Origin: Olsenella profusa F0195
GTDB lineage: Bacteria > Actinomycetota > Coriobacteriia > Coriobacteriales > Atopobiaceae
Length of the DNA stretch: 50,281 bases
Assembly (NCBI RefSeq): GCF_000468755.1
Contig: NZ_AWEZ01000004.1
Location: 1 to 50,281 of the forward strand
Reading direction: 5' to 3'
Both the position numbers and the translations under genes were made by a program. Within the stretch, counting starts at the first letter, position 1. Every line of letters begins with the position of its first letter. Of this stretch, positions 23,879 to 40,019 are shown piece by piece. The notes under the pieces were generated by a model. It did not search any database, had not been told where the DNA came from, and saw only the letters and a list, made by a program, of their open reading frames with translations.

Positions 23879-23895
23879 ACCTCTTGCACCAGCGC

Positions 23896-23971: not shown

Positions 23972-23981
23972 TGCCATCGAG

Positions 23982-24009: not shown

Positions 24010-24014
24010 TATCC

Positions 24015-24090
24015 GGGCCTATGGCGCAACGGTTAGCGCAGGGGACTCATAATCCCTGGGTTGGGGGTTCGAATCCCTCTGGGCCCACCA
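24015..24090 (+). tRNA. tRNA-Ile2(CAT), lysidine-modified type
   Basis: Cloverleaf with acceptor GGGCCTA/TGGGCCC, anticodon loop CTCATAA, and encoded CCA (24088-24090). CAT could mean Met or Ile2. The C4-G69 and C5-G68 acceptor pairs are TilS recognition features shared with E. coli and B. subtilis tRNA-Ile2 and absent from E. coli elongator tRNA-Met, so Ile2 is preferred. Confidence 0.8.
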
Positions 24091-24097
24091 CATGACC

Positions 24098-24129
24098 AGC
24101 CCGCCGCCACAACGTTGGCGGCGGGCTTT
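24098..24129 (+). terminator. Intrinsic terminator after tRNA-Ile2
   Basis: A perfect 12-bp stem (24098-24109 with 24116-24127), a 6-nt loop and a short TTT tail, starting 8 nt after the CCA end. Confidence 0.8.
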
Positions 24130-24299
24130 CCTCGGCCCGACGGGCGCGCCAGCCGCCACTCGCGGAACAGGATCGCCTCAAGCGCATCGCGAACGCATAT
24201 AGTAGTATGCATGGTTGCGAAGGGGCCTGGCTGGCTCCCAGTCCTCATCAGGAATCATAGTTCACCACGGTGCGCCTTCGCATAGAGGAGGCGACTGTC

Positions 24300-25253
24300 A
24301 TGAGCATAGGGTTTCCCATTCCGTCAAAGGAGCATGAGTCGAGGCGGGCGCTCCTCCCCTCCGACCTTGCCGTCATCGAACGCCCCCAGGACCTTGTGTT
24401 CGAGCGGGGCTATGGCGACATCCTGGGAATCACCGACGAACGGTACACGCGTACGGGAGCACGGACGGGCTCGCGCACCGAAGTGTTGGCGTGTGCGAGC
24501 ATCGTCGACCCCAAGGTGGGCGACGCTGACTACCTTGGCAGCCTGGCACCGGGAACCACCATCTTCGGTTGGGTGCATGCGGCCGAGAACCCCGAGGTCG
24601 CCGATGCGCTCACGAAGGGCGGCCTCACGGCCTATGCATGGGAGCACCTGTACGAGGACGGACGGCACGTCTTCTGGCGCAACAATCAGCTTGCGGGAGA
24701 GGCGGCCGTGCTGCATGCGTTCCTCTGCCAGGGACGGATGCCCCAGGGGCAACGGGTTGCCGTCATCGGCCGAGGAGACACGGCCTTGGGCGCCATCGGG
24801 GTGCTGGAGGGGCTCAGTGCCAACGTCACCGTCTATCAGCGCAGGACCGAGGCGCTGCTGCGCAAGGAGCTCCCCTCGTTCGATGTCGTGGTCAACTGCG
24901 TCATGTGGGATCTCACGCGCACGGACCACATCCTGTCGCGCGATGACGTGGCGCGCATGAGGCCTGGCTCCCTCATCATCGACGTGAGCTGCGACGAGGC
25001 CGGTGCCATAGAGACGAGCCACCCCACCACCATAGATCACCCCACCTACACGGTCGAGGGGATCCTGCACTACGCGGTCGACCACACGCCCTCGCTCGTG
25101 TACGGGACCGCCTCGGAGGCCATCTCGGCAGCCGTGGCACGCTACGTCAACGAACTGAGCCGTGGGAGGCATTCCAAGGCGCTTGAGGGTGGTCTCATCG
25201 TCCGCGATGGCGTGCCCGTCCGCCGCCGGACGCCACGGAGCGCGGGCAACTGA
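24300..25253 (+). CDS. N5-(carboxyethyl)ornithine synthase-like dehydrogenase
   Basis: A 317-aa protein of the alanine dehydrogenase/transhydrogenase-related family. The N terminus MSIGFPIPSKEHESRRALLPSDL resembles N5-(carboxyethyl)ornithine synthase of lactic acid bacteria, which condenses pyruvate with ornithine or lysine using NADPH. A Rossmann-like segment VAVIGRGDTALGAIGVLEGL (about 155-175) would bind the nucleotide. GAGGAGGCG precedes ATG 24300. It appears to be a single-gene unit between tRNA genes. A related opine-type or amino-acid dehydrogenase role is the main alternative. Confidence 0.75.
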   Translation: MSIGFPIPSKEHESRRALLPSDLAVIERPQDLVFERGYGDILGITDERYTRTGARTGSRTEVLACASIVDPKVGDADYLGSLAPGTTIFGWVHAAENPEVADALTKGGLTAYAWEHLYEDGRHVFWRNNQLAGEAAVLHAFLCQGRMPQGQRVAVIGRGDTALGAIGVLEGLSANVTVYQRRTEALLRKELPSFDVVVNCVMWDLTRTDHILSRDDVARMRPGSLIIDVSCDEAGAIETSHPTTIDHPTYTVEGILHYAVDHTPSLVYGTASEAISAAVARYVNELSRGRHSKALEGGLIVRDGVPVRRRTPRSAGN

Positions 25254-25290
25254 TGCGGCTCGTGCGTGCGCGGCAGAGGGCAGCGCGACA

Positions 25291-25321
25291 GAAAGGGCCA
25301 GGGCCCGCAGGGACCCTGGCC
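25291..25321 (-). terminator. Terminator of tRNA-Val, possibly bidirectional
   Basis: An 8-bp stem (25296-25303 with 25314-25321) with a 10-nt loop lies 12 nt beyond the tRNA-Val 3' end. Minus-strand RNA continues as CUUUCUG. It also lies downstream of the plus-strand gene ending at 25253 and could serve both. Confidence 0.6.
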
Positions 25322-25333
25322 TTGTGCACGCCA

Positions 25334-25408
25334 TGGTGGGCGATGCTGGATTCGAACCAGCGACCCCTTCCGTGTGAAGGAAGTGCTCTACCCCTGAGCC
25401 AATCGCCC
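25334..25408 (-). tRNA. tRNA-Val(CAC)
   Basis: Cloverleaf with acceptor GGGCGAT/ATCGCCC, anticodon stem CTTCC/GGAAG and loop TTCACAC (anticodon CAC), T arm GCTGGTTCGAATCCAGC, discriminator A and encoded CCA (25334-25336). Confidence 0.95.
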
Positions 25409-25419
25409 GTGCGGAAGAG

Positions 25420-25448
25420 ATACTACCAGAACATTTCCCCACAGCCAA
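25420..25448 (-). promoter_or_regulatory. Sigma70-type promoter of tRNA-Val
   Basis: TTGGCT (25443-25448) and TAGTAT (25420-25425) with a 17-bp spacer, 11 bp before the tRNA 5' end. Confidence 0.65.
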
Positions 25449-25597
25449 CGGGAATTTGGCATTGTGGGCAAGGGGGATGTCTGAGCTGGACGTCACCACC
25501 CCACAGCCTCGCGGAACGGACGCCCCGCACACGATCCGCGATTCGCTACACTAGGTACATGTGAGATGACATACCGACGCAAGAAGAGGGATGCCCC

Positions 25598-25975
25598 ATG
25601 ACGCCGGAGAGCAAACGACTCAAGGTTGGCTGTCTGATTGCCATGACCATAGGCCTTGCCGCCATCATCGTTGGCATTGGGCTCTTGCTCACTGGCTCGC
25701 GGGGCGTTCCCCTGGTGCTTGCCACCATCTTTGGCGTGCTCTGCCTCTTTGCGGCCGCCCGTGGATCCATGCTGGCCAATGTGCCCGCGAATGCGGGAAG
25801 GGTGTTCGTGCTCTCCCTCGTCATCGCCCTGGCCTGCATCCTCATGGGAGTCGCCATGGCCGTCCTCTTTGCCGCAGAGATGGTCGCCAACGTACTGTTT
25901 GCGGCGATGACGCTCATCATGCTCGTCGTTGCTGGCCTCGCGCGCGTCATCGTCAACAAGCTGTCTCGCGTGTAG
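25598..25975 (+). CDS. Small four-helix membrane protein of unknown function
   Basis: A 125-aa protein made almost wholly of four hydrophobic segments, near residues 10-32, 37-56, 68-92 and 95-117, with a short basic N terminus (MTPESKRLK). AGAGGGATGCCCC precedes the ATG. There are no conserved polar motifs and I recognise no family. It is a single-gene unit, followed by a hairpin at 26003-26030. Confidence 0.7.
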   Translation: MTPESKRLKVGCLIAMTIGLAAIIVGIGLLLTGSRGVPLVLATIFGVLCLFAAARGSMLANVPANAGRVFVLSLVIALACILMGVAMAVLFAAEMVANVLFAAMTLIMLVVAGLARVIVNKLSRV

Positions 25976-26002
25976 GGCACATGCACGCAAGAGTGGTGCC
26001 TC

Positions 26003-26030
26003 GGGGCATTCGACAAGGGCCGAGTGCCCC
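26003..26030 (+). terminator. Hairpin after the small membrane protein gene
   Basis: A 10-bp stem (26003-26012 with 26021-26030, one G-U pair) and 8-nt loop. There is no U tract after it, so termination is only probable. Confidence 0.45.
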
Positions 26031-26058
26031 GTCTCATGTCGAACGGTGCGCATGGTTG

Positions 26059-26078
26059 CCTGATATTGCTATATCAGG
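26059..26078. promoter_or_regulatory. Palindromic site upstream of the Nramp gene
   Basis: CCTGATAT (26059-26066) and ATATCAGG (26071-26078) form an exact 8+4+8 palindrome 45 bp before the chosen start. Position and symmetry fit a metal-sensing repressor operator (DtxR/MntR type), but the sequence is not a known consensus. Confidence 0.5.
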
Positions 26079-26123
26079 GGTAACGGCATCTGCATGAGGG
26101 ATAGGGACGGCAGGGAGTGGCCT

Positions 26124-27377
26124 ATGGTTGCAGCGCTTAAGAGGCTCTTTGGCTCCGTGCACACGGGGCAGCGGGGCGGTCTCGACATACTCAAGTTCAT
26201 AGGTCCCGGCCTGCTCGTCACCGTGGGCTTCATCGACCCAGGCAACTGGGCAAGCAACATGGCCGCAGGCTCGACCTTTGGCTACGCGCTACTCTGGGTG
26301 GTCACACTCTCCACCATCATGCTCATCGTTCTGCAGCACAACGCCGCACACCTGGGCATCGTGAGCGGCCTCTGCATCTCGGAGGCCACGACCAAGTACC
26401 TGCCCGGCTGGCTTGGCCGGGGGCTGCTGACAACGGCACTCGCCGCCGTGGTGGCAACGACGATGGCCGAGGTGCTGGGTGGGGCTATCGCCCTCCAGAT
26501 GCTCTTCGGGCTCGACCTGCGCCTAGGCAGCGTACTGGTGGCCGGCGTCTCCCTCACGCTGCTGCTCACCAACTCCTACCGGCACATCGAGCGCTGGATC
26601 ATCGGCTTCGTCTCGCTCATCGGACTCTCCTTCCTGGTGGAGGTCCTCATGGTGCATGTGGAGTGGCCCGCGGCCACCCTAGGCTGGGTCTCTCCCAGCT
26701 TCCCTGCGGGTTCGATGCCCGTCGTCATGTCCGTGCTCGGTGCCGTCGTGATGCCGCACAACCTCTTCCTTCACTCCGAGATCATCCAGAGCAGGCGCTT
26801 CGATGCACAGGGTGATGACGTCATCCGCGAGCGGCTGGACTACGAGTTCGTCGACACGCTCCTCTCCATGGTCATAGGCTGGGCCATCAATTCCGCCATG
26901 GTCATCCTGGCGGCGGCCACCTTCTTCCGGCATGGCATCGCCATCGACGACCTCGCTCAGGCCGCAAGCGTCCTCTCCCCCCTCGTGGGGCCGGCCGCAA
27001 GCCTCATCTTCGCGGTGGCGCTCCTGCTTGCGGGTCTCAGCTCCTCGGTGACGGCAGGCATGGCCGCAGGCACCATCACGGCAGGCATGGCGGGCGAGCC
27101 ATACGACATCCACGACCGCCACTCCTCGCTGGGCATCGTGGCCACGTTCGTGCTGGCCGTGGCGACCGTCTTCTTCGTGGGCGACGCCTTCCAGGGGCTC
27201 GTGTGGTCACAGGCGCTGCTCTCGCTCCAGCTGCCCTTCACGATATTCCTGCAGATCTACCTCACGTCGTCCAGGCGCGTCATGGGCGCGTATGCCAACG
27301 GCCCGGGCCTCAAGGCACTGCTCGTCCTCATCGGCCTCGTCGTGACGGCACTCAACCTGGCGCTGCTGTTCGGCTAG
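26124..27377 (+). CDS. Nramp-family divalent metal transporter
   Basis: A 417-aa membrane protein with about eleven hydrophobic segments. The two metal-site motifs are present: DPGNW in TM1 and AVVMPHNLFLHS in TM6, with the Met-Pro-His of Mn2+/Fe2+ transporters. It should import Mn2+ or Fe2+ with protons. I choose ATG 26124, with GGGAG six bases upstream; ATG 26094 would add ten residues but lacks a well-placed site. The palindrome at 26059-26078 suggests metal-dependent control. It converges on the aldo/keto reductase gene. Confidence 0.92.
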   Translation: MVAALKRLFGSVHTGQRGGLDILKFIGPGLLVTVGFIDPGNWASNMAAGSTFGYALLWVVTLSTIMLIVLQHNAAHLGIVSGLCISEATTKYLPGWLGRGLLTTALAAVVATTMAEVLGGAIALQMLFGLDLRLGSVLVAGVSLTLLLTNSYRHIERWIIGFVSLIGLSFLVEVLMVHVEWPAATLGWVSPSFPAGSMPVVMSVLGAVVMPHNLFLHSEIIQSRRFDAQGDDVIRERLDYEFVDTLLSMVIGWAINSAMVILAAATFFRHGIAIDDLAQAASVLSPLVGPAASLIFAVALLLAGLSSSVTAGMAAGTITAGMAGEPYDIHDRHSSLGIVATFVLAVATVFFVGDAFQGLVWSQALLSLQLPFTIFLQIYLTSSRRVMGAYANGPGLKALLVLIGLVVTALNLALLFG

Positions 27378-27380
27378 ATG

Positions 27381-28241
27381 TCACTCCATATCCAAAGGGA
27401 CCTTATGCGTCGGCGGCGGAAAGGCGTCGTCGAGCAGGGCAAGGTCATCGGAAGTCAGCTCAATCGTGCGGCTCTCCCAGTTTGCCAAGATGTGCCTGAC
27501 GCTCGAGCTGCGTGGAATGGCAATGACATGCTCGTCATGGAGCGCGAAGGCAAGCAGCACCTGCAGGGGCGTAATGCCATGGTGCGCCGCAACCTGCCTC
27601 ACGGCCTCGTCCTCGACAAGCCCTTGGCGGAGTCTTCCCGCCTGTGCCAAGGGACAGTATGCCATGAGGGGAACGCCATTCCCGTTCATCCAGGGCAGTA
27701 GGTCATATTCAATGCCGCGCGAGCCCAGGTGGTAGAGATCCTGGTTTATAAGACAGTGCTCTCCCCCTTCGACATCCATGAGCTCCTCCATGTCATCGAG
27801 GTCGAAGTTAGAGACGCCCCAGCCAAGGACCTTGCCGCTCTCGACGAGCTCCTCCATGCATGATACCGTCTCTTCAAGAGGAATCTGGCCGCGCCAATGG
27901 AGCAGGTAGAGGTCGAGGTACTCCGTTCCCAAACGGCTCAGCGTGCCGTCAAGCGCGCGAGACATGCTACGTCGACCCGCATGGCATGGATAGACTTTGG
28001 AGACGATGAAGAGGCTCTCGCGGTCGCGTCGGCGGATGGCATCGCCCACCAACTCCTCCGTGGCGCCATCTCCGTACATCTCCGCCGTATCGATAAGCCT
28101 GACGCCCGCATCGAGCCCAGCCCGCAGTGCCGATAGCTCCATGGGACGTGGGTGCAGCCCCTCCGCCAGATGCCATGTCCCCATACCAAGACGGGGCATC
28201 TCCCGACCATCCTTGAGCATGACCGTTTCCCTGTATGTCAT
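27381..28241 (-). CDS. Aldo/keto reductase
   Basis: A 286-aa NADPH-dependent reductase with the full AKR tetrad: Asp51 and Tyr56 in DTAEMYGDG, Lys82 in FIVSKVYP, His115 in YLLHWRG. Further family motifs are GWGVSNFDLDDMEEL and IPRSSSVRHILAN near the cofactor site. It starts at ATG 28241, 4 nt after the stop of a broken frame, and is the last gene of the minus-strand aldarate cluster. Its substrate may be a sugar aldehyde or ketone linked to that pathway, but that rests only on position. Confidence 0.9.
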   Translation of the reverse strand: MTYRETVMLKDGREMPRLGMGTWHLAEGLHPRPMELSALRAGLDAGVRLIDTAEMYGDGATEELVGDAIRRRDRESLFIVSKVYPCHAGRRSMSRALDGTLSRLGTEYLDLYLLHWRGQIPLEETVSCMEELVESGKVLGWGVSNFDLDDMEELMDVEGGEHCLINQDLYHLGSRGIEYDLLPWMNGNGVPLMAYCPLAQAGRLRQGLVEDEAVRQVAAHHGITPLQVLLAFALHDEHVIAIPRSSSVRHILANWESRTIELTSDDLALLDDAFPPPTHKVPLDME

Positions 28242-28245
28242 GGCC

Positions 28246-28532
28246 TCACACGCCTCCCTTCGGTCTCTCTGCTACCACGGCATCCTCCAGGCGGATGCCC
28301 ATGAAGCGCGCCATGCCTTTGACGGCACGACCTGTGAGACACAGATGATGACCGTATCGCACTCGATTCGTTCACACCCATCGGAACGTGCCGTGACAAT
28401 GCCCTCGCCATCGAGGATGGACGTACGGAAGATGGGTCCACGCTCATTGATGGACTCGATGGGCTTGCCATACCCGCTCTGGGCGCCATCAAGCTGGGGA
28501 AGGTCCGCCTCCTCGATGGTGTGAGGTGCCAC
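28246..28532 (-). pseudogene. Frameshifted remnant, possibly a flavin/NAD oxidoreductase C terminus
   Basis: From GTG 28532, which has GGGGGAGG upstream, a frame runs with natural composition (GPIFRTSILDGEGIVTARSD, then IECDTVIICVSQ). The latter resembles the strand before the C-terminal FAD motif in glutamate-synthase-beta-like or enoate-reductase-like proteins. Near 28318, in a TCAAAGG context, the sense switches frame: the original frame becomes unnatural and stops at 28272, while the next frame reads KGMARFMGIRLEDAVVAERP and stops at 28246, 4 nt before the aldo/keto reductase. One lost base explains this. The N-terminal part of any such enzyme is missing. Family assignment is tentative. 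Confidence 0.45.
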
Positions 28533-28556
28533 CTGCGTCCTCCCCCACGGAACGGC

Positions 28557-28590
28557 CCAAGGACAAGGGAGCGCAGCCCCTTGTCCTTGG
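28557..28590. terminator. Perfect 13-bp hairpin after garR
   Basis: Arms 28557-28569 and 28578-28590 are exact reverse complements around an 8-nt loop, 38 nt beyond the garR stop. No U tract follows on either strand, so it may be an RNA-stabilising or weak terminating structure. Confidence 0.45.
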
Positions 28591-28627
28591 CACGCGACAT
28601 CCGGTGCACTGCAAAGGTGTTCTCAGG

Positions 28628-29512
28628 CTATCCCTGCAGCTTGAGGTCGTTGACCATCTCGTACCATTCGGCGATGCCGGAATGGTCGTCCTTCTCGTGG
28701 CCGTGTGCCTTGAGCGACTGCATGATCTCCATGGCCAGCGAGGTGAAGGGCGCGACGATGTTGACACCATGGGAGGTGTCGAGCGCGTTCTGGAGGTCCT
28801 TGATATGCAGCTCGATGCGGAAGCCCGGATCGAAGTTGCCGTCAAAGATCTTCTGGGACTTCTGGTCCATGACCACCGAGCCCGCAAGGCCGCTACGGAT
28901 GGCCTCGTAGACGCGGGCGGGGTCGACGCCCGCCTTCTTGGCGAGCGAGTAGGCCTCGGAGATGCCCGCGATGTTGATGGCGACGATCATCTGGTTGGCA
29001 AGCTTGGTGATGTTGCCGGCACCCACGCCACCCACAAGGGTGACCGTCGAGGCCATGGTCTTGAGCAGGCCCTCGTACTTGTCAAAGACGCTCTGCTCAC
29101 CGCCAACCATGACGGCGATGGTTCCGTCGATGGCCTTGGGTTCACCACCGGAGACGGGTGCGTCGAGGAAGTCGACGCCCTTCTCGGCGAGATGAGCGGC
29201 GAACTCGCGGGACTTGATGGGGTTGATGGAGCTCATGTCGATGACGGCCTTGCCGACGGAGAGACCCTCGAAGACGCCGCCCCCATCGAAGAGCGCGCTC
29301 TCGACGTTGGGTGAGTTCTGCATCATCGTGATGACGACGTCAGACTGCTCGCCGACCTCCCTGCCGCTCGCGGCCGACATGCCACCCGCCGCGACGATGG
29401 CATCTATGCGGTCCTGGTGATGGTCGTAGGCGACGACGGTATGGCCTGCCTTCTGGACGTTGAGCGCCATAGGCTTGCCCATGATGCCGAGACCGATGAA
29501 TCCTACCTTCAT
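28628..29512 (-). CDS. garR: 2-hydroxy-3-oxopropionate (tartronate semialdehyde) reductase
   Basis: The 294-aa member of the 3-hydroxyisobutyrate dehydrogenase family reduces tartronate semialdehyde to D-glycerate. It shows VGFIGLGIMGKPMALN (dinucleotide fold), the substrate-site motif DAPVSGGEPKAIDGT, and the catalytic Lys in GNITKLANQM. The ATG at 29512 has AAAGGAACGGC upstream. It lies 70 nt after garK, in the order dehydratase, aldolase, kinase, reductase, which supports tartronate semialdehyde as substrate rather than another hydroxy acid. Confidence 0.92.
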   Translation of the reverse strand: MKVGFIGLGIMGKPMALNVQKAGHTVVAYDHHQDRIDAIVAAGGMSAASGREVGEQSDVVITMMQNSPNVESALFDGGGVFEGLSVGKAVIDMSSINPIKSREFAAHLAEKGVDFLDAPVSGGEPKAIDGTIAVMVGGEQSVFDKYEGLLKTMASTVTLVGGVGAGNITKLANQMIVAINIAGISEAYSLAKKAGVDPARVYEAIRSGLAGSVVMDQKSQKIFDGNFDPGFRIELHIKDLQNALDTSHGVNIVAPFTSLAMEIMQSLKAHGHEKDDHSGIAEWYEMVNDLKLQG

Positions 29513-29567
29513 GCCGTTCCTTTCTCGAACGCTTGCATATTCGCCCTCCTCAAAGGGCATGAAACCC

Positions 29568-29601
29568 ACCCATCCCCGATGCCTACGGCACTGGGATGGG
29601 T
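29568..29601 (-). promoter_or_regulatory. Hairpin at the garK/garR junction
   Basis: A 9-bp stem (29568-29576 with 29593-29601) encloses the garK stop codon, followed on the minus strand by GGGUUUC. It could weaken read-through into garR or protect an mRNA end after processing. Confidence 0.4.
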
Positions 29602-30743
29602 GTCCTTCCCAAGAGAAATGCCCGCATGGCACTCTCACCTGCCAGGGGTATGCTCACGGCGACCCGTGCCAGACACTCCTCGAGTGTAGCGGGTTCCGTC
29701 GTTGTCGGAATGACAAGGCCGATGCCTTCGCGATAGATAGCGCCAAGGTCATCGGCCCTGCTCCCGACGATGGCCACCACAGGGACGCCATGCTGTCTTG
29801 CGATGCGTGCCACACCCACCGGTGCCTTACCGTTAGCGGACTGCGAGTCCATACGACCTTCGCCCGTGACGACAAGGTCGCAGTCTCTCATGTCCTCCTC
29901 GATCCCAATGGCATCCAGCACGAAGTCGATACCCGAAACCACACGCGCCTCGCAGAGGGCAATGAGAGCAGCCCCGAGGCCTCCTGCGGCACCGGAGCCA
30001 GCCACATCGGCGGCATCGGAGCGGACGTCGCGCTTGAGCAGATAGCCATAGTTCTCCATCCATGCATCCACAATCGGAAGATCATCCTTGGCGATGCCCT
30101 TTTGCGGACCATAGACATAGACCGCGCCACGCCTGCCTGCCAACGGATTGAACACATCGGTTAGGGCGATGAACTCCGCCTGGCGCACGCGATCATCCAC
30201 TCCCGTGATGTCGATGGCATGGAGCTCAGAAAGACCGGCCAAACCATCCGTCACCTCACCGCCATCGGCCGCCAGGAAGCGGACGCCCAAGGCCTTGGCC
30301 ATGCCCATGCCCCCGTCACTTGTGGCACTGCCCCCCAGGCCCACATACATGTGCTCCGCCCCCCTGTCGAGGGCATCGAGTATCACCTCGCCCACGCCGC
30401 GCGTCGATGCGCAGAGGGCATTGATGGCGGTCTGCTCGATGAGAGTTATTCCACTGGCCTCCGCCATCTCAATGACCGCAGTCCGTTCCTCCTCAATGAA
30501 GCCGTAATGGGCCGTGACATCAGCGCCCAAGGGTCCTGTCACGCGCACCGAGCACACCCGTCCCCCACGTGCCGAGATGAGTGCATCCATGGTACCCTCC
30601 CCGCCATCGGCTATGGGGCACCTCGTAACCCGCGCATCTGGAGTGACGCGCAGGATGCCCTCGGCAATGTAGTCGTTGACACGCCTACTGCTCGCCGACC
30701 CCTTGAACGAGTCCGAGGCTACGATCACGTTGAGCGAAGCCAT
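29583..30743 (-). CDS. garK: Glycerate kinase
   Basis: The 386-aa GarK/GlxK-type kinase phosphorylates D-glycerate, in this family to 2-phosphoglycerate, feeding lower glycolysis. It begins VIVASDSFKGSASS and shows PIADGGEGT, GLGGSATSDGGMGMAKALG, GSGAAGGLGAALIA and VVTGEGRMDSQSANGK, all family signatures. GGGAGG precedes ATG 30743. It lies between the DapA-family lyase gene and garR. Confidence 0.94.
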   Translation of the reverse strand: MASLNVIVASDSFKGSASSRRVNDYIAEGILRVTPDARVTRCPIADGGEGTMDALISARGGRVCSVRVTGPLGADVTAHYGFIEEERTAVIEMAEASGITLIEQTAINALCASTRGVGEVILDALDRGAEHMYVGLGGSATSDGGMGMAKALGVRFLAADGGEVTDGLAGLSELHAIDITGVDDRVRQAEFIALTDVFNPLAGRRGAVYVYGPQKGIAKDDLPIVDAWMENYGYLLKRDVRSDAADVAGSGAAGGLGAALIALCEARVVSGIDFVLDAIGIEEDMRDCDLVVTGEGRMDSQSANGKAPVGVARIARQHGVPVVAIVGSRADDLGAIYREGIGLVIPTTTEPATLEECLARVAVSIPLAGESAMRAFLLGRTPIPVP

Positions 30744-30788
30744 GAGCCACCTCCCTTCAGAGCCTCTGGTATCACACTGCCCACCCGG

Positions 30789-31697
30789 CTACAGGTATCC
30801 GCCATCCCTCATGGCCCTCTTCATGCCCTCGAGCGCGGCACCGGCTGTGGGCTCTGTCGGCAGCACGGAAGGCCCGACGTCCATGCCCATGAGGTTGGCC
30901 ATGTCCTTGGTTGCCGCCGGGAAGCTTGCGACATCCTGGGAGAGACGGATGGGGTTGAGCCTGAACTGGCATGCCCTTGACCCCTCGTAGTCTCCGGCAA
31001 CATACTTGTCATAGATGCCACACACAAGCTCGGGGAACATGTTGGCGGTCGAGCACACGGCACCATCGGCGCCACAGCACAGGCCAGGGAACACGATGGT
31101 GTCCTTGCCTGAGAACACGGTAAAGGTGACATCGGCAGTCTGGCGTATGAGCTCCTGCAGATCGGTGATGTTGCCCGTGGAATCCTTGATACCCCTGACG
31201 TTCCTCAGTCTGTGGGCAAGGGACACGATGGTGGCGATGGGAATCGGATAGCCCGCACGGCCGGGGTTGTTGTAGACGAACATCGCCGTATCAGGGACGG
31301 CCTGCGCAATGGCCGCATAGTGGTTGTAGAGGGCTTGATCCGTAGGCCTGATGAACATGGGCTGCAAGACGGAGATGGCGTCTATGTCCAACTCGGCAGC
31401 ACGCTTCGCGAGCGTGATACATGCGCTCGTGCGGATATGGCCTATGCCAAACATCACCGGCACCCTGTCGGAGGTCTCGTCGAGGATCTCACGGGTGGCA
31501 TCGATCATCTCGTCATCATCGAACATATAGAACTCTGAGTTCGATCCGAAGGCCAAGATGCCGTCCACCCCATGTTCGATGACATAGTCGACCTGCTTGC
31601 GAAGCTTCGCCGAATCGATCCTCCCCTCCTCATCCACGGGTGTGAGGATGGGGACGAAAATACCCTTGAAGCGTTCGTCTTTGATAGGTTTGGACAT
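30789..31697 (-). CDS. DapA-family class I lyase, candidate 5-dehydro-4-deoxyglucarate aldolase
   Basis: A 302-aa TIM-barrel protein of the dihydrodipicolinate synthase/N-acetylneuraminate lyase family. The Schiff-base Lys is 171 (GIKDSTGN), the catalytic Tyr is 142 (VYNNPGR), and the pyruvate-carboxylate loop is GSNSE (51-55). It lies between gudD and garK-garR. 5-dehydro-4-deoxyglucarate must be split into pyruvate and tartronate semialdehyde for GarR to act, and no GarL/HpcH-type aldolase is present. The alternative, dehydration to 2-oxoglutarate semialdehyde (KdgD/YcbC), would need a semialdehyde dehydrogenase, which is not seen here. Family is certain; reaction is inferred from context. 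CGAGGAG precedes the ATG. Confidence 0.85.
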   Translation of the reverse strand: MSKPIKDERFKGIFVPILTPVDEEGRIDSAKLRKQVDYVIEHGVDGILAFGSNSEFYMFDDDEMIDATREILDETSDRVPVMFGIGHIRTSACITLAKRAAELDIDAISVLQPMFIRPTDQALYNHYAAIAQAVPDTAMFVYNNPGRAGYPIPIATIVSLAHRLRNVRGIKDSTGNITDLQELIRQTADVTFTVFSGKDTIVFPGLCCGADGAVCSTANMFPELVCGIYDKYVAGDYEGSRACQFRLNPIRLSQDVASFPAATKDMANLMGMDVGPSVLPTEPTAGAALEGMKRAMRDGGYL

Positions 31698-31723
31698 TGT
31701 GTGTGCTCCTCGGATGCGTTGGA

Positions 31724-33049
31724 CTAGCGAACCATCGACGGGCGCTTGGGGTCGAACTTCCAGCCCGGGATGAGATACTGCATGCCAATGGCATCATTTC
31801 GCGTTCCCAGGTCGTTCTCAAGGAAGAGCCTATTGGCCCTCATGACGGCGTCACGATCGATCTCGAGACCCAAGCCGGGGACGTCGCGTGGAACGGCCAC
31901 GCGTCCATCTTCGATCCTGGGCGGCCTCTTGGTGAGTGCCTGGCCGTCCTGCCAGATGTAGTGCGTGTCGCAGGCGTTGTAGAAGCCGGGGGCGGCAGCT
32001 GCGGTCTGGGCCACCATCGCCAGCGAGATGTCGAAGTGGTTGTTGGAGTGGACGCCCCAGGTGAGGTCGAGGTCATGGCAGAGCTGGGCCACGCGCGTTG
32101 CACCCTCCATCGTCCAGAAGTGCGGGTCGGCCAGGGGGATCGTCACGGAGTCGAGCCTGATGGCGGCCTTCATCTCGCGCCAGTCGGTTGCGATCATGTT
32201 GGTGGCCGTGGGAAGGCCCGTGAGCCTGTGGAACTCCGCCATGACCTCACGGCCGGAGAATCGGCCCTCGGCACCGCAGGGGTCCTCGACGTAGGTGAGC
32301 GTACCAACCATGTCCTTACATAGGTCGACCGCCTCGGCGAGCGACCAGCAGCCATTGGGGTCGAGGTCGATGCGGGCATGGGGATATGCCTGCTTGAGTG
32401 CCCTGATGGCCTTGATCTCCTCCTTGCCCGCGAAGACGCCTCCCTTGAGCTTGTAGTCGACGAAGCCGTAGCGCTCCGTTGCAGCCTTGGCCTGCTCGAC
32501 GATGGCCTCGGGCGTGAGCGCGGGCTCACGGCGGATGCGGCCCCACGCGTCGGAGTCGTCGTCACCATGGATGTAGGGAAGGTCGGTCTTGCGATAGTCG
32601 GCAACGTAGAAGAGATAGCAGAGGAAGCGCACGGAATCGCGCTGCTGGCCCTCGCCCAGAAGGGCGGCAACGGGAACCTCGAGATGCTTGCCCAGGATGT
32701 CGAGCATGGCGGCCTCGATGGCCGTCTGCACGTGAACGGTGGTGCGCAGGTCGAACGTCTGGGCACCGCGTCCGCCCTGGTCAAGGCTCGCATACTTGTC
32801 ATGGATGGAGCGCACGACATTCTTCCACTTAAAGACAGGCTTATCAACAACCAGGTCATCAATCTCGTTCAGGACTTCGGTGATCTTGGTCGATCCTGGC
32901 ACCTCGCTGATCCCTTCGACGCCCTCCGAATCCGTAAGGATCACAATGTTGCGTGTGAAGTACGGGCCATGCGCGCCCGACAGGTTGAGCAGCATGCTGT
33001 CATAGCCTGCGACAGGGTAGACTTCCATCTTCTCGATCTTCGGTACCAT
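31724..33049 (-). CDS. gudD: Glucarate dehydratase, copy 1
   Basis: A 441-aa enolase-superfamily enzyme dehydrating D-glucarate to 5-dehydro-4-deoxy-D-glucarate. Active-site motifs are intact: the KxK pair in DYKLKGGVF, metal ligands in DLDPNGCW and YVEDPCG, TNMI, and the general-base His in [18 protein letters not shown] precedes the ATG. The DapA-family lyase follows 26 nt later. A second copy lies just upstream at 33185-34531. The two genes differ through the N-terminal third but share a long identical DNA block (32007-32096 here). Confidence 0.94.
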
Positions 33050-33184
33050 GCGATCTCCATTCTCTTGAACGTTCCGCCCATCGCCTGTCTTGTACCTTAC
33101 GAAGCCAGTGGAACCATTTCTATGGCTTCAATAATGAAAAGGGAAACCTAGAGTAAGGACGTGAGATAGTACATGTAACATACG

Positions 33185-34531
33185 CTATGGACGCACCATC
33201 GCTGGGAGGCTGGCATCATACGACCAGCCCGGAATGTAGAACCTCATGCCTCGCGCGTCGTCGCGCGTGCCACAGCCATTGTCCACATAGAGCCTATGCG
33301 CGGCGGCAAGCTTGTCGTGGTCGAGATCGATGCCCAGACCAGCACCATCGCGCGGCACCTGGAGACATCCATCCTCGAAATGGGGGGCCACCCTACCCAG
33401 GTGCTGGCCATCCTGCCAGATGTAGTGCGTGTCGCAGGCATTGATGACGCCGGGGGCCGCCGCGGCGGCTTGGGCCACCATCGCCAGCGAGATGTCGAAG
33501 TGGTTGTTGGAGTGGACGCCCCAGGTGAGGTCGAGGTCATGGCAGAGCTGGGCCACGCGCACGGACCCCTCCATCGTCCAGAAGTGCGGGTCGGCCAGGG
33601 GGATCGTCACGGAGTCCAGGCGGATGGCCGCCTTCATCTCGCGCCAGTCCGTGTCAATCATGTTGGTGGCCGTGGGGAGTCCTGTCAATCGATGGAACTC
33701 CGCCATGACCTCGCGCCCGGAGAAGCGGCCCTCGGCGCCGCAGGGGTCCTCGACGTAGGTGAGCGTGCCGACCATGTCACGACAAAGCTCGAGCGATTCC
33801 CGCAAGGTCCAACAACCGTTGGGGTCGATGGTTATGCGTGCGTCGGGAAAGCGCGCCTTAAGGGCGCGCACGGCCTCCATCTCCTCACTGCCCGCGAAGA
33901 CGCCGCCCTTGAGCTTGAAATCGTGGAAGCCAAAGCGCTTCTGGGCAGCTTCGGCCTCATGGACGATGGCGTCTGGCGTGAGGGCGGGCTCACGGCGCAC
34001 GCGCCCCCACTCGTCTGAGGTGTCGTCATCGTGTAGATAAGGCATGTCTGTCTTGCGATAGTCACCGATGTAGAAGAGATAGCCTAGAAAGCGTACGGAA
34101 TCGCGTACCTGGCCCTCACCGAGCAGCGCCGCGACGGGAACCTCAAGGTGCTTGCCCAGGATGTCGAGCATGGGCGTCTCCACGCCCGTCAGAACGTTGG
34201 TCACCTTCTTGAAGATCTGCGCATGGGCCGTTTCCTGCCCACCTGACCCAGACGCCCCCCTCATCTGGTTCTCAAGCATCTTTCGGCAGCTCAGGACGAC
34301 GTTCTTCCACTGCGCAATGGAGGCGCCCTCCACCAGGGGAATGCAGGACTCAAGCCTCTTGGTGATGACCTCACCGCCCGGGACCTCCCCCACTCCCTCG
34401 ACTCCCTCGGAATCATGCATGACCACGATGTTGCGTGTGAAGAACGGCTCGTGCGCACCCGCCTGATTGAGCAGCATGCTGTCATAGCCTGCGACGGGAA
34501 TGACCGCCATCTTCTCTATGGTGGCAACCAT
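33185..34531 (-). CDS. Glucarate dehydratase, copy 2
   Basis: A 448-aa paralog of the downstream gudD. All active-site motifs are kept ([35 protein letters not shown]), unlike a decayed GudX-type relative. It carries a few extra residues around 95-110 (GASGSGGQETAH) where the first copy reads [10 protein letters not shown], in the loop region near the substrate cap. AGGAGGG lies before ATG 34531. It may act on another aldarate stereoisomer or be expressed differently. It is the first gene of the minus-strand arm, divergent from the CdaR-type regulator. Confidence 0.9.
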   Translation of the reverse strand: MVATIEKMAVIPVAGYDSMLLNQAGAHEPFFTRNIVVMHDSEGVEGVGEVPGGEVITKRLESCIPLVEGASIAQWKNVVLSCRKMLENQMRGASGSGGQETAHAQIFKKVTNVLTGVETPMLDILGKHLEVPVAALLGEGQVRDSVRFLGYLFYIGDYRKTDMPYLHDDDTSDEWGRVRREPALTPDAIVHEAEAAQKRFGFHDFKLKGGVFAGSEEMEAVRALKARFPDARITIDPNGCWTLRESLELCRDMVGTLTYVEDPCGAEGRFSGREVMAEFHRLTGLPTATNMIDTDWREMKAAIRLDSVTIPLADPHFWTMEGSVRVAQLCHDLDLTWGVHSNNHFDISLAMVAQAAAAAPGVINACDTHYIWQDGQHLGRVAPHFEDGCLQVPRDGAGLGIDLDHDKLAAAHRLYVDNGCGTRDDARGMRFYIPGWSYDASLPAMVRP

Positions 34532-34632
34532 ATCAACACCCTCCTGATATCTGCCTTGGCAATGCCTGATGGGCACCCTATGGCGTGTGTCCTTGTGACG
34601 AGGATAGACCCATCAGATCCTGACAGACATAT

Positions 34633-34673
34633 TCCGTGAAACCGATAACCTGCATCCAGACATCGTTCACGGA
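34633..34673. promoter_or_regulatory. Inverted repeat in the gudD/cdaR divergent region
   Basis: TCCGTGAA (34633-34640) and TTCACGGA (34666-34673) are exact inverted copies with 25 bp between, in the 211-bp gap between the second gudD copy (start 34531) and the regulator (start 34743). It is a candidate binding site for the neighbouring CdaR-type protein. A weak TAGAAT hexamer lies near 34705. No other element was recognised in the gap. Confidence 0.45.
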
Positions 34674-34742
34674 TGTCCTCTGTAACACTAATGCGCATGT
34701 ACATAGAATGAGGACGATTCATCGTTAGGGAGAGAGACGCAC

Positions 34743-35870
34743 ATGGACCTGGACCCAAAGATCGCCCACAGCATCGTCACGAGCCTCAAGGACGTCATTA
34801 ACCACGAGATCAACCTCTTCGACACCATGGGCTACGTCATTGCAAGCACGGACGAAAGCCGCGTGGGCACGCGCCATGAGGCGGCTCGCATCGCCGCCAT
34901 GACGCAGAAGACGGTTCCTGTTGACAACAGCGAGCAGTTCAGGGGCGCGCGGCACGGCATCAACGTACCCGTCCTCTTCAATGAGGCCGTTGTGGCGGTC
35001 GTTGGCATAACGGGAAACCGAGAGGATGTGGAATCGTTTGGCACCATCATCGGCAAGATGACCGAAATCCTCATTCGCGAGAACCATGATCAGGTCGTGA
35101 GGTTTGACGAGCTCGAACGCTACGCCAACCTCATGAACCTGCTCGTACTCAAACGACATGACCACGGACTCGTCGATTACCTTGCCTCGGTGCTGGGCAT
35201 CGACCTCACGGTCCCTCGCCGTGCCCTTGTTGGCAGGCGTACGGACAACGGGGCCCTCAATAAGTCGGGAGACGTCTATCCCATCCTGTATGCTCATTTT
35301 GCACAGGAGCCGCTGAGCTTCTTTTCGACGAGCGAGAATGAGGTAAGGATATTTACCGAAAAGTCTGGGAACCGACTCTCGAACTTCGCACGTGACATTC
35401 AAAGGGACCTGGAAGAACGGTTGAGGACGGACGTCTGCTTTGGTATTGGCAGCGAGGCGCACGGCGAGAACGAATACTGGCGTAGCTATGACCATGCGCG
35501 CAGAGCGCTGGATTGGACGATGTTCACCCACGACGGATCCATGCGGCACTTCCAGAGTCTTGATGCGGGCATCGTCTTCACGGCCATTCCAGACGATGAG
35601 TCAACGAATCTCGTGCGTCACGTGTTTGGAGACCTTCCCGACAAGGAGATAGATGACTATCAGCTCGTGTTCGATGCCTATACGCGTCATAACGGCAGCA
35701 TCAAGCACTGCTCTGAGGAGCTCTTCCTGCATAAGAACACCCTCCAGAACCGCCTCAACAAGATCGCGCGTGTCACAGGGTACAATCCGCGCGAACTTGC
35801 CGACTATACGGTGCTCTCCATTGCCTTCACCCTGAGGAGCTACCTACGCTCCAAGACAACGAGACCTTAA
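34743..35870 (+). CDS. cdaR: CdaR-family sugar diacid regulator
   Basis: A 375-aa transcription factor with an N-terminal sugar-diacid recognition domain (about 1-130: DPKIAHSIVTSLKDVINHEI, then GYVIASTDESRVGTRHEAA), a middle GGDEF-like region (about 140-275), and a C-terminal PucR-type helix-turn-helix (about 310-368: SEELFLHKNTLQNRLNKI). CdaR activates glucarate, galactarate and glycerate genes in E. coli. It is divergent from the gudD arm, and the transporter gene converges on it from the right. GGGAGAG precedes the ATG. It likely senses glucarate, galactarate or glycerate. Confidence 0.93.
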   Translation: MDLDPKIAHSIVTSLKDVINHEINLFDTMGYVIASTDESRVGTRHEAARIAAMTQKTVPVDNSEQFRGARHGINVPVLFNEAVVAVVGITGNREDVESFGTIIGKMTEILIRENHDQVVRFDELERYANLMNLLVLKRHDHGLVDYLASVLGIDLTVPRRALVGRRTDNGALNKSGDVYPILYAHFAQEPLSFFSTSENEVRIFTEKSGNRLSNFARDIQRDLEERLRTDVCFGIGSEAHGENEYWRSYDHARRALDWTMFTHDGSMRHFQSLDAGIVFTAIPDDESTNLVRHVFGDLPDKEIDDYQLVFDAYTRHNGSIKHCSEELFLHKNTLQNRLNKIARVTGYNPRELADYTVLSIAFTLRSYLRSKTTRP

Positions 35871-35900
35871 CGCTGGGATTCACACGAACGGGTGCGCCAA

Positions 35901-35935
35901 TGCCCGGTGGCTCCGCCTTGCGGAGCCACCGGGCA
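35901..35935. terminator. Perfect 16-bp hairpin between convergent genes
   Basis: Arms 35901-35916 and 35920-35935 pair perfectly around a 3-nt loop, between the convergent cdaR (ends 35870) and transporter gene (ends 35969). It is well placed as a bidirectional terminator although U tracts are poor on both strands. Confidence 0.65.
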
Positions 35936-35968
35936 AAACATCGCAAGACGTCCGATGTCGTACCTGCG

Positions 35969-37312
35969 TTATGGCATGAACACGCCCGTCACGATCCCAA
36001 AGAGCACGACGATGACGTTGAGCGCCCACAGCTTAAGGAATGAAAACTTGATATGCCCGTCGATCGTGATGCCGGTCAGGTCGGTAGCAATGTAGAGCTG
36101 AGGCTGTGCGACAACGGAGATCATGGAGCCGAAGTTCATGTAGAGGGCAACGATAACGACCTCCGCGGGCACGCCATACTGAGCCGAAAACGCGATGACC
36201 AATGGCATGAGCGCATAGAACCAGGTGTCATTCGTGAAAAGCAGCATAAGGGGCGTACTGAAGAGTGCAATGACGAGGTAGAGATAGGGGCCAAGCGCAG
36301 AAGGTACGATGGCCATGAGCAGTTGAACCATGGCATCCAGCATACCGCTATCCTGCATGACACCCACGACGACGCCAGAGAGAAGCACGGCCGGCAGCAC
36401 GGGAAAAAGCGATCCCGCATACTTCTTGAGAAGCTTGTTCTGCTGTTTGAGATCGGGATAGTTCACTTGCAGGGCAATAACAAGGCCGAAGGCAAAGACA
36501 TAGTACTGGGGAATGTCACCAAAGGCGATGAGACAGAAGATCAGAAAGGCGGTGAACATGAGGTTGAATGCAAAGCGATTGTGGCGAGAAAGCTCGGTGT
36601 CCTTGAACTGGGCTAGCAGCTCGGCATGAGAGACCTCTCCCGCCTCCTTGCGATTCCTACGCTCCCTGATGCCGAAGAAGATGGCAACACCAACCAGCAT
36701 CACGAACATGAACACCTGAATGGGAACCAGCTTAAGGAAGAGGGCGGTTCCCGTGATACCTTGATCGCTCACAAGCGAGGCAGCGCGGAGGATCTTCGGG
36801 TTCCACGGCGTGTTGCACATGAGAAGGATGGCGACGCAGATGAGGAAAGGCAGAATCTTCTTATCAACCCCAAACTTCTCATACAAGGGAAGCATGAGCG
36901 GCACCGTAATAAGGAAGACGGAGGTGATGGAGCCATCAAGCTCGCAGATGCAGGCCACTATCACGGTCAGGATGCAGATGGCGGGTGCTGACACCCTGAC
37001 ATGTTTCATAATCGCCTTGACGATGTCATCGAACATGCCCGTATCCGCAATCATCATGAAATACGGAAGCGAGAAGAGCATCATCAGCGAAATGGATGTG
37101 GTCTTGCTAAAGCCATCCTTGAGCCACGTCCCAAAGGTGCCGGGAATGCTCGTGGCGTCTATGGGACCACCGGCCGCAACGAACAGGGCAATGAAGCCGG
37201 CGATCAAGGGGAACACCGTAAAGGCGAGCAGCGTGCTCACCTTGTTCTTGAGCAACACGACCGTAATGACAATCATGGTCGCAAAGCCCAGCAATGCCAA
37301 TCCGAGATTCAC
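35969..37312 (-). CDS. CitMHS-family carboxylate transporter
   Basis: A 447-aa membrane protein with about twelve hydrophobic segments, of the CitMHS/ion-transporter group (N terminus NLGLALLGFATMIVITVVLL; DTGMFDDIVKAIM; LDGSITSVFLITVPLMLPLY). CitMHS members carry metal-citrate complexes with H+. Here it stands beside cdaR and opposite garD, so an aldarate such as glucarate or galactarate is the likely substrate. I set the start at GTG 37312, which has GGAGG six bases upstream and gives the family N terminus; in-frame starts further up (37357-37390) lack a good site. Base composition is somewhat more A+T-rich than in the housekeeping operons. Confidence 0.85.
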   Translation of the reverse strand: MNLGLALLGFATMIVITVVLLKNKVSTLLAFTVFPLIAGFIALFVAAGGPIDATSIPGTFGTWLKDGFSKTTSISLMMLFSLPYFMMIADTGMFDDIVKAIMKHVRVSAPAICILTVIVACICELDGSITSVFLITVPLMLPLYEKFGVDKKILPFLICVAILLMCNTPWNPKILRAASLVSDQGITGTALFLKLVPIQVFMFVMLVGVAIFFGIRERRNRKEAGEVSHAELLAQFKDTELSRHNRFAFNLMFTAFLIFCLIAFGDIPQYYVFAFGLVIALQVNYPDLKQQNKLLKKYAGSLFPVLPAVLLSGVVVGVMQDSGMLDAMVQLLMAIVPSALGPYLYLVIALFSTPLMLLFTNDTWFYALMPLVIAFSAQYGVPAEVVIVALYMNFGSMISVVAQPQLYIATDLTGITIDGHIKFSFLKLWALNVIVVLFGIVTGVFMP

Positions 37313-37642
37313 TCCGATCCTCCAATCCCATAACGTCACATGTCCGAAGAGACACATGACAGCTGCCCACATGGATGCGGATACGACCACATCTCACAGA
37401 GGAATGGTACGTGTGAGACAAACCGATCAAAAGCACCCCGAGGACAGAAGTCAAAAGGATGGGTTCAACCAAAAGTAGTCTCCATACCAACTTGCCACAA
37501 AGATAACAGCAGGAAATAGCTTTTAGAACGTCATGCTTCCGCATGCATTACAGAATTTATGTTCCATAGACCCTTACCGCCCTATGACACGCCGCATAAG
37601 CTCAAAGGCGTGCGTTCGCCCAAAGGACTCGAAGGAGGATCC
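37313..37642. promoter_or_regulatory. Divergent control region between transporter and MBL-garD operon
   Basis: This 330-bp gene-free stretch is A+T-rich around 37480-37560. An exact 7-bp inverted repeat TCTCACA/TGTGAGA (37392-37398 and 37412-37418) could be a regulator site. TTGCCA near 37490 and TACAGA near 37550 are weak promoter-like boxes for the plus strand. No RNA gene or riboswitch fold was recognised. Confidence 0.4.
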
Positions 37643-38506
37643 GTGAACAAGCCCATCTACTATGCTCCGGTTTCCCATCCTCGCCTGGGGGACGAGCTTG
37701 ATTGCCCCCGCCGCCATGCCATAGACGTCTATCGGGTTGCTCCCCATGTTTGGAATGTAGGGGGCAACGATGATGTGTGCTGCTACCTGATCGACTCGGG
37801 AGATGGCCTCGTCCTCCTCGATACGGGCTATCGTGCCTCTGTCTACCTGCTGATTGACCACATCTGGCAAGCAGGGTTCGATCCCAGAGGCATTAGGAAG
37901 GTGTTGCTTTCGCACTGGCATTGGGACCACGTGAATGGCGCCTCATATATTCAAGGACTTTCGGGATGCGAGATCTGGCTCTCCTCCGTGGATGAGAAGC
38001 TTCACCAGAAGTGGAAGGACGACGTGAGCGAACTGCCTATGGCCCCCTATGAGATCACCGACACCTATGAGTTCTCAAGGCCCCTGGAGATTGGCCGCCT
38101 TTCTATTGAGACAAGGCTTGTTCCAGGGCACACACCAGGAGCCGTCGCCTTTCTCTTCAGCGACACGGACGAGAGCACAGGCAGGACATATCGATGCGCC
38201 ATGCATGGCGGCTTGGGTGTGCCCATGATGAGGCCCGAGACCAGAGACAAATGGGACATCACCGAGGCTATGGTCAGGCAATTCGTCTCGAACTGTGAGG
38301 AGTTGTCCCGATGGCACGTGGATATCATGCTTCCCAGTCACGTGAATATGGGCAATGTCATTCCCAACATCCCAGCGGACAGGAACGACTATCGAACGTG
38401 GATCGCCCCCTATGCGTGGGGTGACGTGCTGAGGGATCGTAAGAATGTCGTCTTGGGATATTATCCCAAGGAATTCTTTGAGAGGGGGAGAGCGCATGAG
38501 CGGTAA
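37643..38506 (+). CDS. Metallo-beta-lactamase-fold hydrolase in the galactarate operon
   Basis: A 287-aa MBL-fold protein. The main metal motif HWHWDH is at 91-96, after the usual LLDTGY strand (59-63). Further His ligands lie in VPGHTPGAV and near the C terminus in LPSHVNM. The position that normally supplies the bridging Asp reads CAMHGGLG, so that ligand may differ. The start is GTG 37643, with AAGGAGG five bases upstream. Its stop overlaps garD by 11 nt, so the two are co-translated. Many MBL proteins open lactones; hydrolysis of glucaro- or galactarolactones is one idea. No known aldarate pathway needs an MBL enzyme, so function is open. Confidence 0.8.
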   Translation: MNKPIYYAPVSHPRLGDELDCPRRHAIDVYRVAPHVWNVGGNDDVCCYLIDSGDGLVLLDTGYRASVYLLIDHIWQAGFDPRGIRKVLLSHWHWDHVNGASYIQGLSGCEIWLSSVDEKLHQKWKDDVSELPMAPYEITDTYEFSRPLEIGRLSIETRLVPGHTPGAVAFLFSDTDESTGRTYRCAMHGGLGVPMMRPETRDKWDITEAMVRQFVSNCEELSRWHVDIMLPSHVNMGNVIPNIPADRNDYRTWIAPYAWGDVLRDRKNVVLGYYPKEFFERGRAHER

Positions 38507-40019
38507 GTTGGTCGTCAGGGTTGACGAGCGCGATAATGTGGCAATTGCTATTCGCGACTTAGCTGCAGGCGAGGAGGTAGCCCCTGGGATCCGCACACGT
38601 GAGGCAATACCGCAGGCGCACAAGGTGACCCTTGTCGATATCCCCAAGGGGGGTGAGGTCATTCGCTACGGCATCGTGCTTGGACATGCGCTTGAGGACA
38701 AGCCTGCAGGCTCATGGATCAATGAGCATTCGCTGCAGCTACCCGTTCCACCCCCACTCGAGCAGATGGAATGGGGTGTCGAGATCGGCTGGAATCCTCC
38801 TGTCCCTCCCATCACAACGTGGGAGGGCTACCGTAGTCCAGATGGGTTCTATGCGGGAACGCGTAACATTCTGGGTATTCAGACGACCGTCCAGTGCGTG
38901 ACTGGTGTCGTCAACAAGGCAGTCCAGAAGATCAAGCAGGAGATCCTCCCACGGTACCCCCACGTTGATGATGTTGTCGCGATTAATCATGCGTATGGCT
39001 GCGGCGTGGCCATCAAAGCGACCGAAGCATACATTCCACAGAGAATCCTGCGCAATATCGCACGACATCCCAATTTTGGCGGGGAATTCATGCTCGTGAG
39101 CCTGGGGTGCGAGAAGTTCTCTCCAGAGCTCTTCTGCCAGGACAGGCCAGGGGACAATACCTCCGACAACGTCATCATCCTCCAAAAGTGCCATGGCTAT
39201 GAGGATCAGATACGACGGATCTGCGAAATGGCCGAGCGCAAACTCGCCAGGCTCAATGAACGTCACCGCGAGGCATTGCCCCTCTCCGATCTCCTACTGG
39301 GTGTTCAATGTGGAGGGTCTGACGCCTTCTCCGGTGTTGCCTCCAATCCAGCCATTGGCTATTGTGTCGACCTGCTCGTGGCAGGCGGCGGCACGGCGAT
39401 GTTCTCCGAGGTCACCGAGGTGCGCGACGGGGTCTATCTCATCGCCCGACGTTGCGTAGACGAGGCTACCGAGAAGAAGCTTGCACATGAGATGCGTTGG
39501 TACGACGAGTATCTCGCCAAGGGCGGAGCTGACCGCAGCGCCAACCCAACGCCTGGTAACAAGCGGGGTGGTCTTTCCAACATCGTTGAGAAGGCCATGG
39601 GTTCCATCGCAAAGAGCGGTACCTCCCCCATCGTCGAGGTACTCTCTCCTGGCGAACGCCCGACCAAGCATGGCCTCATCTATGCGGCCACACCGGCAAG
39701 CGATATCGTATGTGGTCCCTGTCAGCTCGCCAGCGGCATTGGTGCACAGCTCTTCACCACGGGACGTGGCACCCCCTATGGTCTAGCACAGATTCCCGTC
39801 CTCAAGATTTGCTCCCGCAGCGAGGTCAAGCGTATGTGGCCGGACCTCATCGACATAGACGCAGGGCCCATCTCGAGCGGAGAGCGCTCCATCCAGGCCA
39901 TTGGTAGCGAACTCTTCACGCTACTCATCGATGTCGTCAGCGGTAGGAGACGGTCATATGCCGAGGAACACGGACTCGTCAATGATTTGTGCGTCTTCAA
40001 TCCGGCACCTATCACGTAA
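38496..40019 (+). CDS. garD: Galactarate dehydratase
   Basis: A 507-aa UxaA/GarD-family dehydratase converting galactarate (meso) to 5-dehydro-4-deoxy-D-glucarate. An N-terminal SAF-like domain (about 1-90: VRVDERDNVAIAI, KVTLVDIPKGGEVIRYG) is followed by the catalytic region with NHAYGCGV, LGCEKFSPE, GVQCGGSDAFSG and TSGERSI-like loops near the end. The ATG at 38496 lies inside the MBL gene end with GAGAGGGGGAG upstream. Its product is the same as that of the GudD enzymes, so both arms feed one lower pathway. Confidence 0.92.
   Translation: MSGKLVVRVDERDNVAIAIRDLAAGEEVAPGIRTREAIPQAHKVTLVDIPKGGEVIRYGIVLGHALEDKPAGSWINEHSLQLPVPPPLEQMEWGVEIGWNPPVPPITTWEGYRSPDGFYAGTRNILGIQTTVQCVTGVVNKAVQKIKQEILPRYPHVDDVVAINHAYGCGVAIKATEAYIPQRILRNIARHPNFGGEFMLVSLGCEKFSPELFCQDRPGDNTSDNVIILQKCHGYEDQIRRICEMAERKLARLNERHREALPLSDLLLGVQCGGSDAFSGVASNPAIGYCVDLLVAGGGTAMFSEVTEVRDGVYLIARRCVDEATEKKLAHEMRWYDEYLAKGGADRSANPTPGNKRGGLSNIVEKAMGSIAKSGTSPIVEVLSPGERPTKHGLIYAATPASDIVCGPCQLASGIGAQLFTTGRGTPYGLAQIPVLKICSRSEVKRMWPDLIDIDAGPISSGERSIQAIGSELFTLLIDVVSGRRRSYAEEHGLVNDLCVFNPAPIT

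Follow-up and report, generated by a model that had tools for sequence, protein, structure and literature searches.

The question raised by this locus is which enzyme cleaves 5-keto-4-deoxyglucarate (5-KDG) when the dehydratases that would make it, and the reductase and kinase that would act after it, are encoded together and GarL is missing. For the window (the whole stretch of DNA analysed here, 50,281 nucleotides from Olsenella profusa F0195), the original prediction was a non-orthologous replacement, with a DapA-family lyase in the place of GarL. This is supported by the GudL signature, the relatives and the neighbours of the corresponding gene, hereafter gudL, and by the lack of GarL and of any KGSADH over cut-off. 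Its product is thus very probably a DapA-superfamily class I aldolase cleaving 5-KDG in GarL's stead. Since Levy et al. (2025; PMC11775122) have already described this substitution in other bacteria, the window does not represent a new replacement.

A predicted aldarate gene cluster

In order of transcription, the reverse-strand run reads gudD2, gudD1, gudL, garK and garR (Table 1). A CdaR-like regulator gene is divergent upstream of this run and is followed by genes for a CitMHS-type transporter (reverse strand), a metallo-β-lactamase-fold protein and GarD (both forward). Model scores bear out the predicted joint presence of GudD, GarD, GarR and GarK, with GarD and both GudD-like proteins (699 and 636 bits, cut-off 829) falling below their equivalog cut-offs. 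GudD1 and GudD2 each keep 11 of the 11 E. coli GudD positions inspected, and E. coli GudX keeps the same 11, so that their retention is no proof of GudD activity. GarR exceeds two tartronate semialdehyde reductase equivalog cut-offs, which fits tartronate semialdehyde as the product of the preceding step, and the CdaR-like product scores 108.8 bits with the NCBIfam CdaR model (cut-off 612). Some starts need adjusting: homology begins at residue 43 in GarR and near residue 18-23 in GarD, so that the true starts are probably near 29512 and about 38496, respectively, and the start of the gudD2 ORF is probably internal.

Table 1. Features of the gudL cluster and its immediate surroundings (window coordinates)
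Feature	Position	Strand	Remarks
aldo-keto reductase adjoining cluster	27381..28241	-	relatives near several related clusters
garR, tartronate semialdehyde reductase	28628..29638	-	408.6 bits (cut-off 397); 57% identity to E. coli GarR
garK, glycerate kinase	29583..30743	-	413.6 bits (cut-off 168); 43% identity to E. coli GarK
gudL, DapA-superfamily putative 5-keto-4-deoxyglucarate aldolase	30789..31697	-	Met114, Tyr142, Lys171, Lys198
gudD1, glucarate dehydratase-like	31724..33049	-	61.4% identity to E. coli GudD
gudD2, second glucarate dehydratase-like paralogue	33185..34576	-	69.9% identity to gudD1; orthologues in related clusters
cdaR-like sugar-diacid regulator	34743..35870	+	Pfam Diacid_rec and HTH_30 over cut-off
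CitMHS-type transporter, candidate glucarate/galactarate importer	35969..37390	-	PF03600 over cut-off; citMHS model below cut-off
metallo-β-lactamase-fold protein	37559..38506	+	Pfam
garD, galactarate dehydratase-like	38445..40019	+	713.5 bits, slightly under 730.9 cut-off

In the pathway proposed here, GudD and GarD would dehydrate glucarate and galactarate to 5-KDG, which GudL, as predicted for the window protein, would split by retro-aldol cleavage into pyruvate and tartronate semialdehyde. GarR would then reduce the latter to glycerate and GarK would phosphorylate the glycerate. In GudL, Lys198 and perhaps Arg147 would hold the far carboxylate of the substrate.

The CitMHS-type gene is a transporter candidate for aldarate uptake. 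Its product does not match GarP or GudP significantly, it shares with gudL the same 3 of 121 genomes of the family, and its relatives adjoin gud genes in loci of Bifidobacterium, Lacticaseibacillus and Coriobacteriia. In the openly licensed PMC literature, glucarate and CitMHS were found together only in a Pectobacterium PhoPQ paper. Clusters from Collinsella (L013, L014), Enterococcus (L017) and Streptococcus (L019) have a different permease-like ORF nearby, weakly classified or unclassified. A UxuA-domain protein, possibly another sugar-diacid dehydratase, and a CitMHS transporter precede gudL-garK-garR in L027 (5468-7753), where no gudD is seen. Relatives of the metallo-β-lactamase-fold protein occur in four other gud clusters (L013, L020, L070 and L082). 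Nramp-domain proteins are encoded near the cluster in the window (26094-27377) and within that of L012 (1511-2794), and these are not close, no match to the window protein above 50 bits being found in L012.

Identity of the DapA-like protein

The gudL ORF starts with ATG and encodes 302 residues, whose sole Pfam match is PF00701 (DHDPS, 193 bits), the GarL-type HpcH/HpaI domain PF03328 being absent from the product. Tyr142 and Lys171 align with the tyrosine and the Schiff-base lysine of DapA, and the earlier description of a DapA-family ORF with these two residues is confirmed by the domain match, by a recount of the residues and by the alignment. The product remains below every NCBIfam cut-off, the best model by score being DapA (TIGR00674, 168.3 bits, cut-off 206.15), and scores 109.7 bits with NanA (TIGR00683, cut-off 382), 73.9 bits with KdgD (TIGR03249, cut-off 373.95) and 86 bits with PRK03620 (cut-off 278). 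The predicted structure (mean pLDDT 87.2, with low values beginning at about residue 251) does not separate the candidate functions, and neither does a fold search, whose 50 listed matches are mostly DHDPS structures, the top ones included, with YagE and sialic acid lyases as well.

The protein can be compared with GudL of Enterocloster clostridioformis, which Levy et al. (Nat Commun 2025; PMC11775122) describe, on the basis of genetic complementation, as DapA-like and as a ‘putative’ 5-KDG aldolase. According to the passages of that paper considered here, a garL knockout in E. coli abolishes fermentation of glucarate and galactarate, which the gudL genes of Enterocloster and Fusobacterium restore. 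The key residues (E. clostridioformis numbering) are Met110, the Schiff-base Lys167 and Lys194, rescue being abolished in the Lys167Ala and Met110Ala mutants and reduced, not abolished, in Lys194Ala. Met114, Lys171 and Lys198 of the window protein correspond to these three residues with a constant offset of 4, and gudD, garD and garR lie in the neighbourhood, as in the published GudL context. When the window residues are mapped onto the structure 3pb2, their partners are Tyr, Lys and Asn, of which Tyr and Asn match the ancestral Tyr110 and Asn194 given by these authors (PMC11775122). Assignment of the window protein to GudL, which draws on signature, synteny and the text of PMC11775122, is a prediction from sequence.

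The phylogenetic placement by which the original prediction proposed to be checked was carried out on 45 rows: the window protein, 30 relatives in other genomes, two paralogues from its own genome, four E. coli proteins and eight rows retrieved with the KdgD model (four of the eight over its cut-off). Five further rows had been dropped before counting, namely a partial gudL (L028), a gudL in two pieces (L029), the window itself (L030) and two rows with the same genes as L020 and L026 (L032 and L040). The window protein lies inside a clade of 21 rows with 100/100 support, made up of itself and 20 relatives, Enterococcus included, none of which was identified as a sequence used in PMC11775122. 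Met114, Lys171 and Lys198 occur together in exactly these 21 of the 45 rows. A long-branch warning from the tree program (NanA, DapA, the KdgD stem and others) makes the deep order unsure, the GudL clade itself being recovered at 100/100.

Other routes from 5-keto-4-deoxyglucarate

KdgD-type enzymes would offer a different fate for the same substrate. The window protein would then be a decarboxylating dehydratase whose product, 2-oxoglutarate semialdehyde, would pass to an aldehyde dehydrogenase (ALDH) encoded elsewhere, a reading for which the superfamily, the substrate and the lysine and tyrosine in common speak. In the tree, however, the window protein does not cluster with the KdgD rows, which occupy a branch of their own (length 3.12) and, while keeping the Lys and the Tyr, differ at their motifs (GTGE, PPYL, no NNPGR stretch and GAE for GKD), and its scores with KdgD and PRK03620 are far below the cut-offs. 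The second enzyme of such a route is not apparent either. There is no PF00171 match on C4, the contig of the window, and the six matching stretches genome-wide lie in five proteins (ExaC-like, MMSDH, acetylating acetaldehyde dehydrogenase, AdhE and ProA), none of which is over the KGSADH or 2,5-dioxovalerate dehydrogenase cut-offs (NF042993, NF052305). Two ALDHs that could be invoked, the ExaC-like protein on C17 and the MMSDH on C6, score 353 and 303 with the KGSADH model against a cut-off of 770. The claim that no semialdehyde dehydrogenase is seen for this route therefore holds genome-wide at the level of models, and a KGSADH that no model describes is conceivable. Finally, with a KdgD activity the neighbouring GarR and GarK would have nothing to act on. 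The KdgD route is rejected as highly improbable: the model scores, the motifs and the tree speak against it, and the genome has no recognised KGSADH.

A second possibility is that 5-KDG is cleaved by another aldolase and that the DapA-like protein uses a different 2-keto acid. GarL itself can be set aside, since in this genome (99.4% complete) no PF03328 match is over cut-off, as the original prediction had it, and the lone weak one (22.2 bits) is pyruvate kinase. The KDPG-aldolase family offers more, PF01081 being over cut-off on contigs C61 and C29, but none of its matches is on C4, and gudL accompanies gudD, garK and garR in more than one phylum. The gene eda is still present when garL is knocked out in E. 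coli. The loss of glucarate and galactarate fermentation in that knockout (PMC11775122) argues against such a substitute, and this reading, too, appears very unlikely. As an aside, one KDPG-aldolase-family match on C61 (105581-106071) is split into two parts, of which one has an in-frame TGA; the same contig has two intact matches.

A third reading, in which the protein would be a DapA or NanA paralogue of the usual kind with no aldarate role, as its best NCBIfam model and top fold matches could suggest, is barely credible given its failure to reach any NCBIfam cut-off, its operon context, its signature residues and the presence of another gene in the same genome (L002) that groups with E. coli DapA instead (100/98, on long branches). 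A putative GudL-type aldolase is thus the reading retained here: clustering with KdgD, a semialdehyde dehydrogenase and a GarL homologue elsewhere in the genome, which had been named in advance as evidence against it, were all looked for, and neither the clustering, nor a KGSADH over its cut-off, nor a GarL homologue was found.

Distribution and comparison with known systems

Around gudL, gene order is widely kept, gudD-gudL-garK-garR being found in 15 of the 19 loci of a named-genome scan, in Bifidobacterium, Collinsella, an uncultured actinobacterium, Lacticaseibacillus/Lactobacillus, Enterococcus and Streptococcus. Among the other four, L026 reads garD, garR, gudL, garK; L027 has gudL-garK-garR with gudD missing within its 16.9 kb; and L029, a 5.6-kb contig, has gudL in two pieces and no other matched gene. 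In Collinsella tanakaei An368 (L028, 3374-5036), only residues 22-172 of gudL are found, between a cdaR fragment, which they abut, and an aldo-keto reductase gene; this is either another loss or an assembly fault. With the window's own genome counted, gudL is present in 3 of 121 sampled genomes of its family (at 1e-80) and 8 of 396 of its class (at 1e-70). On plasmids there is no close GudL (at least 60% identity), the 60 matches listed of 1,496 matching plasmid records being 29-35% identical. In the tree, the nine Actinomycetota rows group together (100/98), and their clade is joined to the three Lacticaseibacillus/Lactobacillus rows (96/89) inside the Bacillota sequences, a topology suggesting that gudL may have reached the Actinomycetota by transfer from Bacillota.

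A genome of the same species (G006) illustrates how the cluster can be absent. It matches the window over 19233-27786 (99.6%) and 39647-49648 (99.8%), and the 11,860 bases in between (27787-39646) are replaced by 1,345 bases (L069, 8555-9899) holding an element that encodes an rve-domain transposase and has inverted ends of 28 bases, which match at 23 positions. From its make-up we take this element to be IS30-like. Truncated pieces of the aldo-keto reductase gene and garD persist at its edges, so that an element-associated deletion is the simplest reading. No copy of the element was found in the window's own genome among the 40 of 55 first-look candidates scored. Variation of this trait between strains is described in PMC11775122, and a same-species genome with the element instead of the cluster agrees with it.

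How far GudL extends beyond its signature was considered in 391 genomes from the class of G122, a Christensenella MAG genome (probably Clostridia), at a threshold of 1e-60. Thirteen match, three with the Lys198 form and ten in sister clades in which position 198 is Ser, Thr, Gln or Arg and Met114 is kept in nine; these clades would probably escape the 1e-100 search described in PMC11775122. A garR match is near nine of the ten sister-clade genes (one about 7 kb off; some stretches end at contig ends), and eight (L085, L087, L089, L090, L091, L092, L093 and L095) have garR plus gudD or garD nearby, gudD being in two pieces in two of them; near L094 there is none of garR, gudD and garD. Because the operon context is shared by sister clades that lack Lys198, this residue may not be the one that discriminates, and a position proposed to mark the limits of GudL may not mark those of the function: either Lys198 can be dispensed with, or the sister-clade proteins have a related substrate. 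Arg147 does not discriminate, since Arg is also aligned there in the eight KdgD rows and in DapA, Lys being found there in the sister clades. The chances seem about even that the GudL solution is wider than the Met110/Lys194 clade, with Actinomycetota using a third, CitMHS-type aldarate importer and the sister clades, probably of Clostridia, cleaving the same substrate from operons of garR with gudD or garD.

The main text of PMC11775122, in which passages itemise 831 of 887 surveyed species by phylum, mentions none of Collinsella, Olsenella, Bifidobacter, Eggerthella, actinobacter, coriobacter and Actinomycetota (its supplement may hold some). Relative to that text, GudL clusters in Coriobacteriia and Bifidobacterium may be new, as may the CitMHS transporter candidate and the sister clades, and surveys of oxidised-sugar use should include Actinomycetota. 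Among openly licensed PMC papers, gudL is named alongside glucarate in PMC11775122 only, and no other DapA-type 5-KDG aldolase appears in titles or abstract openings among the matches listed.

Compared with known systems, the window protein shares with E. coli GarL (HpcH/HpaI family) its predicted reaction and pathway position but belongs to another family, without significant sequence match (best E 0.62). With KdgD it shares superfamily, substrate, Schiff-base lysine and tyrosine (see also PMC13398020, a paper on KdgD/KdaD whose consulted parts do not mention GudL), and differs in predicted product, motifs and clade. E. coli YagE and YjhH, annotated as 2-dehydro-3-deoxy sugar acid aldolases, are likewise of the DapA superfamily, but fall in another clade and have Tyr at both 114 and 198. 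Their reaction is an aldol cleavage yielding pyruvate. The closest parallel is GudL itself, with the same superfamily, Met/Lys/Lys spacing, gudD, garR, garK and cdaR context and role as a GarL stand-in. As far as GudL is described in the parts of PMC11775122 consulted, the window differs from it in its actinobacterial host, in two GudD paralogues within the cluster and in a CitMHS-type transporter in the place of the ABC transporter GarABC.
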